This document shows, in pieces, positions 16,201 to 34,200 of a stretch of DNA of 64,000 bases. The notes under the pieces were generated by a model. The model worked only from the letters and a program-made list of their open reading frames with translations, ran no database searches and was not told where the DNA came from. The position numbers and the translations under genes are program-made. Within the stretch, counting starts at the first letter, position 1. Every line of letters starts with the position of its first letter. Source of the stretch: Diphasiastrum complanatum (Eukaryota > Streptophyta > Lycopodiopsida > Lycopodiales > Lycopodiaceae); contig CM055092.1 in the NCBI GenBank assembly GCA_029204225.1, positions 64,212,011-64,276,010 on the forward strand. Direction: 5' to 3'.

Positions 16201-19200
16201 ATATAGTTTTGATGCCTCATTGAAGGTATACCAAAGTTTCCAATGCTTTCCATGTTTATATATAGGAAATGAATTGTGTATGGACAACCGCTAAAACAAG
16301 ATGACACTTAATGAAAGAGTGAGGAAAGATTGGGGAAGCGATTTGCTCTAGCCGCCAAAAGTTATAAGGCAAAAGAATTTAATGCAGCACTGGAGGGACA
16401 CACACACACACACACACACACACACACACACACACACACACACATATATCAGACACGAGGATCTGGGCCGGGCACGGCCATTTTGCGTCCGTGCCAAGCG
16501 CCTGGGCACGGGGTCGGGTGCGCCCATTCATTTATTTATTTATTTATTTTAGGCTGGACGCGTCCACAGCGTTCGGGCGCAGGTGCGTCCGGGTCTTGGT
16601 GCACGCTCAGGACCGGACGCATTTAAAAAACCTTCGCCAGAGAGAGAGAGAGAGAGAGAGAGAGAGAGAGAGAGAGAGAGAGAGAGAGAGAGAGAGAGAG
16701 AGAGAGAGAGAGAGAGAGAGAGAGAGAGAGAGAGAGAGAGAGAGAGAGAGAGAGAGAGAGAGAGAGAGAGAGAGAGAGAGAGAGAGAGAGAGAGAGAGAG
16801 AGAGAGAGAGAGAGAGAGAGAGAGAGAGAGAGAGAGAGCCCTGCGGTACCCGGACGCGAGTGTGCTGTGAGGCCTTTTCGGTCGAGATGGCAAAGTGCAC
16901 ACCAGTTGACGTGAGCATTTGCTCTGTATCCGTTCGCATGCAATTTAGGCTTGTTATGTGTTTTTCGTAGTTTATTTCCATCGTGGTATATTGCTTGACG
17001 GGCTTCTTTGTGTGTAGAGGGAGAAACTCTTGGAAGATGTCCGAAGGCACAACGAAAGGCATCGGAAGTTCGAGGCGGAATTTGCAGAGATGCAACGACA
17101 AGCTCGACTGAGACACCCGGATCCGGAGCCCCCCGCCCCCACCCTCGCTGTCGAGGGGGATGAGGATGAGCGGATTGGAATTAACTTCACTGCACGACAG
17201 CTGGCCATGGTCAAGGAAAGGGTGCGAATTTGTCGGGCTAACCAGGAGGCCCAGCGAGAGTGAGAGAACAATGCACCTGACTAGGGCGAGGAGTCAGTGG
17301 AGGATTCGTAGGAATGCTAAGACTAGATAAGGTCCAGTCGTATGTGGTGGACTGTTTCTATGAAATTTTCAGCAGTAGATGAGGCGGCATATAGTTAGAC
17401 AGTAGCATAAAAAACAGACCCAGCCGTATGTGGCGGGATATGCAATGTTTGAGACATCTCTTGAATTAATATAGTGTGTTTTTTGTGCAACACGCGCTTG
17501 GTTTTGTGAAACACAAGCGCCCTGGGCGCGCTCGCGCCCGGACGCCCGTCCGCGCCCACCATCCGCTTCCTTATATATATATATATATATATATATATAT
17601 ATATAAAGGCATTTTTTCATAGTGGAAGGCTTCCCGAAGGCTCGGGTTAAACACACGACGAAATATCATGCCAGTCAGTCGATAGTTGCTACCTGATGGC
17701 TGGCACATTCTCTTCTCTCTCGAAACGCTCGAAGAACGAACCTTCTCCAAGGTGCGGATTTGAATTTAATATATTTTCATTTAAGATATATATATATATA
17801 TATATATATATATATATATATATATATATATATATATATATATATAAGGAAGCGGATGGCGGGCGCGGACGCGCCAGGGGTGCGTCCACGTCCGGACGCG
17901 TCCAATTTTTTTCAAATTTTTGTTTTTCAAAAAAAAGAAGAAGTATACAGGCACCTGCCTACACTACCCCCCATCCCAAAAGCAAAATAAAAACAATTTA
18001 TGGCCCCTGTTTTTCCCCCGGAATTAATTATCAGAGGGTGCCTGTCACCCACCTCCCCCCTCCTGTTAAAAAATAGGAAAACAGTACCGAAAAAATTTCC
18101 AAAAATATTTGCAAAAATATTTGCAACAGACCTAACCACTGGGCCATGCCTCTCATAACCTCAGTATTACTAAACAACCATGGCCAGTGAGCAGTTCATA
18201 AATTATTACGAACCTTCATTGGAAACTAAGCTCCAGAAAAGCGGCAAAGAAAGATCTGAGAGTGGTTTCGAGTGAAGGTTTGTATGGCAAACATATTACT
18301 GCCCCAAGGTTTAGAAGTGAATGCTCGCCAGAGGATTGGGGAAAGGTGAACGCTCACCAGAAGAGTGACAAGCTCTCAGGAGCAGAAGTCTCTGGGGGAA
18401 ATTAGGGCTCACCAGAAGAGTGACAAGCTATACACTACTGTGACTCGGTTTAGGGGATCGGTTTCTTCCCAGATGAACTTCAACAACTTACTAATTAGTT
18501 ATGGCACTACTCCAACTCGCTACAATACGATGTCGAAATTTACAGTACCTGCTCCACGAACCCCTGCGCTTGTATTTCTGGACCTTTAATACATTCTACG
18601 CAGGTTTAAGTGTATGCTGCACAAGTGCAGCTTTGATGTTGAATCTGCACATACATGTGGTGCAATGCCTACGACACAATGAGGACGTGGGTGGGGTTGA
18701 TGATGTTTATGGATGATGATTATGCTTGTGGCTTGTTTTGATGGTTATGGCTGTGGGGTTGTGGGTTTAGGGTGATTTGTTAGGGTTTGGGGTGTTGTGT
18801 TAACTGTGCCATTTGTTGGGGTGTCGGGTTTAGGGTCTTATGTTAAATGGTTGAACATGATGCATATGTTTTGAATGAGATGCAGATGTGCTGGTCTCTC
18901 TCTCTCTCATCTTGCACGGAGCAAACCATTTTTGACTAACCATTCAAACTCCACAGAGCTAACCATTTGTAAGCAGCCACGATAAATTAGCCATGACACA
19001 AATATACTGTAAAAAAATATATACATCTCATCTGATGCCACTGTACATGATGCTAAAATGTGTATCAGTATCTACAAGTCTGCGCTAAACAAATCATCCC
19101 TCTGCGTGCCAGATGCATCTGCAGGGGTGTCAAATACAAAGTCTGGCTGGGAGTCTGGAGGCATCTGGGACTCCTCTAAGTCTGGGCCAACGCCTGCCAA

Positions 19201-31200: not shown

Positions 31201-34200
31201 TAAAAAATCATCCCTCAGAATCGCAAGCCGCGGCAGATATGGAGACAACCAGTTCCTGCACCAAACGGTCCACACACATCTATATGCACACAAATCAACA
31301 ATATCCACACACACACACACACACAATTTTCACACACACACACACACACACACAACTCATCACACACACACACACACACACACACAACTCATCACACACA
31401 CACACACAAACCCAATAGCACTCTCTCTCTCTCTATGCCTCTCCCTCACTCGCTCTCTCTCTTCCTCTCCCGCCCTCTTTCTCTCCAGGTCTCGGGCGGA
31501 ACAGTCCGTCGGATGCGTCCCTTTGTTTTTTTTGCTTTTTTTTTTGGAGAAAAACGCGTCCGGGGCCCGGACGTGTTCTGGGCCCCGGACGCGTCCAACC
31601 CAAAAATTAAAAAAAAAAGGACGCGTCCGACTATAGTTGTGTCGAATCGCGATTCATTGAAAGAACCGCGATTCGAAAGACCTTTTCGAAAAGGTCCGGT
31701 TCAAACCATTTTTTGACTGTTCAAACTGTTTAAAAAAAAAAAAAAAACTCGTCGCCTCCTCGCGACCTCTTGCTCCTGCTCGCAATTGCTCCTCGCGACT
31801 CCTGCTCCTCGCGACCTCCTGCTCTTGCTCCTCGCGACCTCCTACAGCCTGCTCATTACCCCCCCCTGCTCGTTACCTCCCCCTGGGCCCTGAAGCTTCC
31901 CAGATTTCTGCGCCTGAGAGAGAGAGATCCGAGACACTGGATAGAATATAGATCCACGAGTTTGGAGAGAAATCCGAGAGAGAGAGAGAGAGGGGTGGAG
32001 TTGTGTGAGAGGGGTGGAATTGTGTGTGTCACGTGTGGCTGTTCAGTGTGTGTTCAATGTGTGTGACTGTTGACAAATGTGTGTGTGTGTGTGTTAAATG
32101 TTTGACAATGTGTGTGGGTGTGTTTTTGTGTGTGTTTGACAAATGTGTGTGTGTGTGTGTGTGTTTGACAATGTGTGTGTGTGTGTGTGTGTGTGTGTGT
32201 TTTGTCATTTTCGTGAAATTCGAATCATTGAACATTTGCTAATTTACCACTAAATAACCATGCACATGGTACATTGGAATATGACATATGTAATATGTAA
32301 TATGTATGTTGTGACATTACTGTTTTAAAAAAAAAACCCTAAAATCGATTCGCCATTTCGAACATGGAGAAGTCGATTCTTTCCCGATTCAAACTCGATT
32401 CAAACACGGTTCGAAAAGGCGATTCGAATGGTACCCTCAAACATTGCGTCCGACCCCGCGTCCGGGGGGTCGGACGCGGACACGGACGCGGACGCGGGCA
32501 TTCCAGCCCGGACCCTCATGTCTGATATTATATATATATATATATATATATATATAGAGAGAGAGAGAGAGAGAGAGAGAGAGAGAGAGAGAGAGAGAGA
32601 GAGAGAGAGAGAGAGAGAGAGAGAGAGAGAGAGAGTAGCTTGAAGATGATTGGGGACGATGCATGTGATGGACAATCACGAAATATGCTCCAAACCTTCC
32701 AAATCATTATTTTGAAAAGATGGTGACTGCCAACATGAGAGAGGCACTTATCCCTGCTACATGAGAGACTGCCAACATGAGAGAGGCACTTATCCCTGCA
32801 TTAGCAGGCTCCAAATCTCATTGGTTTTTGTAAGAAATTAAGTCAAGCTGTCAAGTTGGAAGGAAATGTGTAATTTGAAGCTTATTATGCACAGACAAGG
32901 TGCTCACTCTAAAAATTTTAGTTACAAAAATCAGCACATGTTTTACATCTTTCGATCCCAAATCTCCAGTGAATGGTGGCCGAACCATTATAGCAACTAA
33001 GAGGATTGAAAGTTGTGCAACCTACAATAGTAAAATTAAAGTGTAGACAAACCTTCTTAAGCTTTTAACGTTGTTGAAAGAGATGTGACACTTTTAAATC
33101 CGTTTTTCAGCTTTTTGTCAGTTAGATATCAAATGTGCAATGGGAAAAGAAATTTTATGTCCTATTATATTAACCCAACGTTTTAGTCATATTTTGAAAA
33201 CTATTTGCTGGCAATGGACAGAGATGAAAATGAAGAAACCCTCCCGAAGGTACCATTTGAACATCTCATTTTATGGACATCCAGTTGCAAGTTGTAATGT
33301 GCATGAGAGTGCACTATTGTAACACCCTACTGTAAGAAGAACAATGATGTAAAAATGTTCCAATAAGTGCTAAAATGGCAAAACTAGTGAAAACTAGAAA
33401 GCCAACAAGTGAACTTCTACATATATGATATATGAAGTTTTAGAAAGTGTAGAAGAATGTGCACACCGTCGGAAGGAAAGCAATGTAAATGGATCCAAGA
33501 AAGTACACAAAAATCATGAAGAAGATGAAGTCCAAATTTCAGAAGAAAATAAAAGTTAAGTTGCACATCCAAACGACAATATTGAAAGTGCATCAAGGCC
33601 GACCTACTAGAGGAAATACGACGAAATTCCCACAAAAGTCCTAAAAACGTGGAATTGAAAACTTATTTTAGAAACTAGTTTTCTAGCATCCTATTTTGTG
33701 CTACTTAGATCAGAAAACATTTTGCATGTTCTTCATTGTCTAGTAGAATGAATCCAAAAATGTAATTTAATTATTATAAGGAGCTAGAAATAAGAAGTTA
33801 GCTTTTTTCCTCAAAGCAAAACAAAATGTGCCAAAAAATAATCAAGTGCTATAAAAAAGAGCACATGTAAACTTGTTGTAATCTCAACTCCTCTATGCTT
33901 GAAAGTGCTTTGATACCAAGTTGTGAACACGACGACCATTGGGCATCACATGTATGTATTTCCAATTGAAGGATCATACAACAATCTCAAGCTAAGATCA
34001 TTGTATGGACTTCAATGAGCTAAGCATGAAGTAGATTGCAAGCCCTCCTCTCAAAAGAACAAGAAGATGAGTAGAAAGAACTCAAAGCACTGAATCAATC
34101 AATTGTGGAATGACAAAAGTAACTATGCTTATATTCTTTTGGAGGTTATGAAATTTACATGTTAGGTAGCTATGAGATTAGATTCCGCCATACAGTCCAA

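Follow-up and report, generated by a model that had tools for sequence, protein, structure and literature searches.

Four hAT-type elements and a 1.7-kb inversion

In a 64,000-nucleotide stretch of Diphasiastrum complanatum DNA (contig CM055092.1 of assembly GCA_029204225.1, forward strand, positions 64,212,011 to 64,276,010; here the window), self-comparison and the location of end motifs place four nested or adjacent hAT-type elements, X, Y, C and Z, between 16450 and 32524. X is at 16450-17573, Y extends rightwards from 17845 and has C sitting inside it, and Z terminates at 32524. The element of concern here is C, whose two genes are convergent: a small open reading frame (ORF) of 121 codons and a hAT transposase gene with DUF659 and AT hooks. 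In the window C is in two parts, inverted relative to each other. The right part (21344-25754, plus strand) has the end CATAGG at 21344 and bears the transposase gene, with a BED-like finger and an AT-hook tail discernible by eye together with DUF659 and hAT dimerization regions. The left, small-gene half (26247-27462, plus strand) lacks the outermost ~21 bases of its CATAG end and contains the small gene, which is intact (26872-27237, plus strand) and is identified from genome loci, the ratio of nonsynonymous to synonymous substitution rates (dN/dS) and the ORF list.

What separates the halves is an inversion of 1.7 kb, 25755-27458, that splits C and also Z, and flipping it restores both. After the flip, two matches to the C element of locus L031 become one continuous match of 3115 bp and, spanning the other breakpoint, the alignment of Y with Z is continuous from 17865 to 18429, so that one inversion accounts for the disruption of both elements. 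Elsewhere in the genome, the small-ORF half is joined straight to the transposase half in all eight longer loci (L031-L038, taken from the best genome matches to the small-ORF stretch), with window position 27462 next to 25754 (25753 in one) read backwards, an order absent from the window itself. The window copy of C has a further inversion, of 350 bp, within its transposase gene (21800-22149, minus strand relative to the matching parts of the eight long loci) and has lost sequence at about 23080; its transposase is consequently dead, and the small ORF is intact despite this. Contig C5131, an alternate haplotype or an unpurged duplicate, repeats the region (L003, L040 and L060), with X and the C-type small ORF oriented as in the window and the latter broken at 62 codons.

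A preliminary description, made from the letters of the window, had taken 16450-26000 and 26040-32524 as two copies of one element with CAGACATGAGG-type ends, in which a small ORF was paired with the AT-hook gene at 19072-21063. Its component observations are borne out. Ends of the CAGACATGAGG type are present at 16450, at 26040 and, inverted, at 32508-32524; there are small ORFs of 121 codons and of 89 codons (8 + 81, with an intron between), and NERH, PEPPAP and NFTxRQLxMV are common to the two; a non-coding core is also common to both copies as drawn, 18110-18894 matching pieces of 27459-30069 at 81-89% identity; and the AT-hook hAT gene is on the minus strand, with its 3′ tip alone left in the supposed second copy (18895-19102 versus 31010-31216). 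The grouping of these parts into one element does not survive, as the supposed second copy is a chimera that results from the inversion. Its small ORF is part of the CATAG-ended element, the other half of which, with its own hAT transposase, is 21344-25754, and the small ORF of the supposed first copy is part of the separate short element X. The true partner of the small ORF of C is the DUF659 gene at about 21700-25460, and the ends of that element are CATAG, not CAGACATGAGG.

Element C as a family and selection on its two genes

The four genome copies of C with both ends (L031, L032, L035 and L036) measure 6123-6207 bp, and the termini, CATAG...CTATG, amount to CATAG at both ends, i.e. a short terminal inverted repeat. 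The consensus of hAT terminal inverted repeats begins C/T-A, which the ends of C fit. Target duplications of 8 bp are seen in four C copies: GTGTGTTG flanks L035 (6207 bp from CATAG to CTATG) on either side, as CCTCCAAC does L037, a deletion form of 3550 bp, and L025/L054 and L024/L055 are flanked by GTTGAGAG and ATTCAAAC, respectively. With copies in TA repeats (L031, L032, L034 and L038) target duplications are not scorable; no right end was detected in what was fetched of L019/L056, and no left end in L033. The distribution of GGTACC in L035 is markedly terminal, with five sites in the first 300 bp, four in the last 300 bp and one in the 5-kb middle.

In the damaged transposase gene of the window, the DUF659 region is at 22730-23086 (plus strand; Pfam E 2.4e-28, residues 1-119 of the ORF 22730-23242) and the match to the dimerization domain, Dimer_Tnp_hAT, is below cutoff at 0.0015. 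The majority reading of six aligned transposase rows is open over a stretch of 625 codons from the ATG and over a last exon of 545 codons, and in it Pfam recognizes DUF659 at 1.5e-40, Dimer_Tnp_hAT at 1.4e-9 and no other domain. By eye, there is a CRYC...RLKGHL...C pattern at the N-terminus (no Pfam BED match at E 0.1) and a tail of about 540 residues with AT hooks.

Co-occurrence of the small ORF with a transposase gene, as the preliminary description envisaged, is found for this pairing. The junction between the two genes, represented by a 32-mer, has 395 exact places in the genome (201 in forward and 194 in reverse orientation, against none for the reversed control) and is present in 28 of 30 fetched loci, these having been picked by a small-ORF query. 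It is missing from two loci, namely L001, which is the window copy with its inversion, and L003 on the duplicate contig C5131. The transposase tail is in 25 of the 30, and a full-length small ORF (120-121 codons) in 23. A first look for the small-ORF stretch gave 2374 candidates in the genome, 40 of which were scored and have 98-100% identity. The 30 rows depart from their own consensus by a mean of 1.0% within the ORF and 0.8% across the 3′ non-coding part; since the best matches were fetched, they are the young end of the family. The family is abundant and the copies examined apparently young. Even where the transposase has been deleted, in L034 and L037, the small gene is kept.

A subfamily, M, extends from 5441 of L034 into L057. 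At its left end is CATAG, its small ORF (6302-6616) contains one stop codon, and its transposase, convergent with the small ORF, was matched in segments from 11251 down to 7124, the gene order being as in C; the right end of M was not identified in L034/L057. C and M have in common the position of the small gene, its convergent partner and a 3′ flank of 67% identity, on account of which the small gene was most likely inherited within the element and diverged under constraint in the two.

Selection on the small protein, which the preliminary description had suggested and with which a ratio near 1 would be at odds, is sustained by the sequence comparisons. Between C and M the small ORF has a dN/dS of 0.23 over 103 codons (1.42 and 1.96 in the shifted frames), and post-insertion changes in the single M copy push this ratio upward. 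Between C and X it is 0.39 over 93 codons (1.43 and 1.46 in the shifted frames), with a bootstrap range of 0.18-0.81 and a value of 1 or more in 0.95% of 2000 resamples. Values for the transposase, C versus M, are 0.23 for exon 1 (556 codons) and 0.38 for the tail (510 codons), with 1.06-1.32 in shifted frames. Between C and X the small ORF has indels of 18 and 21 bases and an alignment gap of a single base, and between C and M an indel of 18 bases. For single copies compared with their own consensus, the ratio of the proportions of nonsynonymous and synonymous differences (pN/pS) is 0.32 for C (30 rows, similarity-chosen) and 0.67 for X (10 rows). The two-gene architecture with purifying selection on both genes is well supported. 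That C is a two-gene hAT cut-and-paste transposon, with a convergent transposase and a selected small gene, is given a probability of roughly 0.7. The earlier idea of a hAT family with a selected second gene is largely borne out for C, once that element is correctly identified, and not for the element as first drawn.

Element X, the CAGACATGAGG-ended family and neighboring features

Element X (16450-17573, plus strand) has a CAGACACGAGG end, a diverged small gene and a CTAAGGAAGCGG-type end, and a transposase cannot fit within it. Its small gene, also on the plus strand, comprises an exon of 8 codons (16887-16910) and an intron with GT and AG ends (16911-17017), both read from the sequence, and a second exon of 81 codons followed by an early stop (17018-17260), placed by consensus and alignment. 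The consensus of the X family is open as far as the C-terminus of the C protein, and X rows differ from it by 8.2% in the ORF, more than the 4.8% in the 3′ non-coding part. A CAGACATGAGG-type end precedes the small gene in L039 and L040 (the window X and its duplicate), in the near-identical L042-L044, and in L047, L048 and L049; none was found before it in L041, L045, L046 or L050. The small gene of L045 is bordered by a CTAAGGAAGCGG-type end on either side, and L052 (the L046 locus) and L053 have the small gene, a reversed non-coding core like that of Y and Z, and a CTAAGGAAGCGG-type end. Flanks of up to 1.5 kb were covered for the other X loci, apart from L051, which is an extended L041. 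The end repeats of X are GGACGCGTCC, unlike the GGTACC of C. The X elements, a related set with CAGACATGAGG-type ends, have a small gene that is decayed and contains an intron, and no transposase was detected in them. L051 was considered as a two-gene element of the X family, with a convergent transposase of a third hAT family, hAT3, present from about 1875. This candidate was rejected because hAT3 is most likely a separate element: the hAT3 flank L058, which is without the small ORF, matches L051 only from about 1875, just beyond the X junction zone. Of hAT3 places, 39 scored besides the query locus are 95-96% identical, and the 40 scored hAT3 places and 40 scored X places overlap at the L051 locus only.

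The CAGACATGAGG-ended elements constitute another hAT family, separate from C. To it belongs Y (17845-21343, minus strand), with ends of the CTAAGGAAGCGG and CAGACATGAGG types, which contains the core and the transposase gene hAT#1; its other end, 26040-26246, was displaced by the insertion of C and by the inversion. The hAT#1 gene, the one first paired with the small ORF, is at 19072-21063 on the minus strand, and has AT hooks and an internal deletion. Most of Z, a member of the same family with the hAT#1 gene deleted, is at 27459-32524 (plus strand), and its first ~265 bases are the inverted 25755-26019. In L061, a longer copy than that of the window, the core and the hAT#1 gene accompany a CAGACATGAGG end located at 835. 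Treatment of CAGACATGAGG and CTAAGGAAGCGG as the repeats of two families was rejected, as L032 has them as the unlike ends of one short element: at 363-571 there is a miniature element, ~209 bp long, that begins and ends in CTAAGGAAGCGG and CAGACATG and has the 8-bp duplication ATCTATAT on both sides (one short copy scored). L045, with its two CTAAGGAAGCGG-type ends, complicates this picture.

Just within the CTAAGGAAGCGG side of Y and Z is an open frame of 31 codons (18180-18275 and 27528-27623) in which the differences past the first five codons are, by eye, mostly synonymous, and it is possibly another small coding unit. Inserted in Z, at 30078-31021, is the 3′ end of a LINE-like retrotransposon with a weak, below-cutoff zf-RVT match and 91% identity to 64-1005 of L041. 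The right subterminal region of Z (32202-32446) has inverted 72% similarity to 35892-36097, which is beyond the interval reported here. At 60641-62896 of the window there is an open frame of 752 codons with a GRAS domain (PF03514, E 3.1e-85), a plant transcriptional regulator.

The small protein and its possible roles

The small protein of C has 121 residues, of which 20 are R and 20 are E, has no W, C or Y, and has a pI of 5.8. As in the preliminary description, it is of no recognized family, and searches of Pfam, NCBIfam and PDB gave nothing convincing. At E 10 the window protein matches nothing in Pfam or in PDB, and Pfam shows no Myb-like domain in it; the other 11 aligned members have weak and mutually unrelated Pfam matches, the best at E 0.024, and NCBIfam gives one sub-threshold match at E 0.012. 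AlphaFold, run with two sequences, predicts helices at 10-45, 66-70 and 76-108 (mean pLDDT 71, pTM 0.30) and no tertiary fold. The protein is highly charged and predicted to be mostly helical, with two long charged helices. Its stretch NQEAARANR resembles the basic region of a bZIP protein. A bZIP assignment was rejected, as NQEAARANR here arises from a 21-bp tandem duplication (27138-27178) without a counterpart in the X consensus, and no zipper follows it.

To our knowledge, hAT transposons are textbook single-gene elements; they also serve as genetic tools. Plant DUF659 hAT elements resemble C in duplicating 8 bp of target, in having a short terminal repeat and in the DUF659 and dimerization domains of the transposase, and C differs from them in its convergent, selected second gene and in the long AT-hook tail of its transposase. 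A transposase together with a smaller second gene in one DNA transposon, as in C, is known from Harbinger, CACTA (En/Spm) and MuDR, but these are of other transposase superfamilies, and C has an 8-bp duplication, CATAG ends and no Myb-like domain. Harbinger-type elements encode a Harbinger nuclease and a Myb-like second protein; in C, Pfam finds only DUF659 and Dimer_Tnp_hAT in the transposase and no Myb match in the small protein. A different comparison, by analogy, is with the VANDAL21 elements of Arabidopsis and their protein VANC, where there is likewise an extra encoded protein and short repeated motifs in non-coding parts, though VANDALs are Mutator-like and no homology is shown. VANDAL21/VANC is described as an anti-silencing system (PMC5735166, PMC10398659). 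A term search of titles and abstract openings in the open-licence literature found no report of a two-gene hAT, which does not exclude that one exists. The unusual point about C is that a hAT element has a second protein gene kept by selection.

The small protein may be a nuclear accessory factor that aids transposition or escape from silencing and, in the simplest form, its binding partner would be the transposase or else the GGTACC-rich arrays at the ends. The odds are evenly poised on whether C and M constitute a two-protein hAT system of which the small protein is a true component, as partner or in anti-silencing, and from which its gene was passed to X elements, with the ends of a second hAT family, which keep it without a transposase, the gene being of value in its own right to any carrier. 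Transposase partner and VANC-like anti-silencing factor are the leading options, and passenger is possible. An obligate or stimulating partner, in a role like that of the Myb-like protein of Harbinger and with its two charged helices forming a coiled coil with the transposase tail or with the protein itself, is a tentative reading somewhat short of an even chance. It is consistent with the conservation of the convergent arrangement in both C and M, with dN/dS values that are similar for the two genes, and with the predicted helices 10-45 and 76-108; the low pTM of the model and its want of a tertiary fold speak against it, as do L052 and L053, X loci in which the small gene occurs without the C transposase. 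Doubtful, though to be taken seriously, is a VANC-like factor that would bind short repeats in the non-coding ends and remove methylation. Both ends of C are GGTACC-rich, as counted in L035, and the persistence of the small gene in the transposase-deleted L034 and L037, as well as in X, would suit a factor acting on any motif-bearing copy; VANC itself binds short tandem motifs in the non-coding parts of its element (PMC5735166). However, no link of sequence or fold to VANC was found, no VANC sequence having been compared, and the end repeats of X differ. Moreover, hAT transposases themselves bind subterminal repeats, so that the arrays need no second binder.

That the small ORF is a captured fragment of a host gene, a passenger without a role whose coding signal was inherited from that gene, is rather unlikely. 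Plant hAT elements and MULEs do capture gene pieces, the segment has moved between element families, as X shows, there is an intron in X and none in C, and X copies are decayed. On the other side, the position, partner and 3′ flank common to C and M make it likely that the gene was inherited in the element, under constraint, and the 40 places scored in each of the small-ORF searches (C and X) are all high-identity and multi-copy, no dedicated search for a single-copy host gene having been made. Very improbable is the pairing first proposed, in which CAGACATGAGG-ended elements would be two-gene units of small ORF and the AT-hook gene at 19072-21063. The order of the elements in the window and the common ends fit it, but the inversion explains the arrangement of the supposed second copy, and no CAGACATGAGG-family copy examined combines both genes: in L061, where that transposase and a CAGACATGAGG end are present, no small ORF is detectable (tblastn at best E 7.9; other end not found), and L052 and L053 have the small ORF and no match to the hAT#1 segments tested. 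Hardly credible is an origin of the ORF by chance in G+C-rich transposon DNA; the ORF is indeed short, charged and of low complexity, with no convincing family match, but dN/dS is well under 1 in the true frame alone, the indels measure 18 and 21 bases, and the frame of the X consensus extends to the C-terminus of C.

Several points weigh against C as a two-gene hAT transposon with a selected small gene. Among its copies, L036 has no target duplication and a right end without CTATG, and the fully open transposase is known as the six-row majority reading and not from any single copy. In the dN/dS values (Nei-Gojobori counts), M is represented by a single copy with a stop codon in its small ORF, and choice of the 30 loci by small-ORF similarity means that they are not an unbiased test of co-occurrence. 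None of 10 X translations is open in one frame to the consensus C-terminus (some rows are one base off). Before their CTAAGGAAGCGG-type end, L052 and L053 match neither the segments of the C transposase nor two segments of hAT#1, and movement of the small gene in X without a detected transposase is the behavior expected of a passenger. Nor does every hAT of the genome need the gene, since the hAT#1 copy L061 and the hAT3 flank L058 are without it. Finally, as no homologue was found, the designation accessory protein is inferred, from sequence alone.

If C is indeed a two-gene hAT transposon, selection on its second gene would point to the evolution, in one plant lineage or more, of a helper or counter-silencing protein within a hAT element. 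Harbinger, CACTA and Mutator elements gained second proteins separately, and C would parallel them. With an abundant family and young copies, the benefit of a second protein to a hAT element becomes testable.

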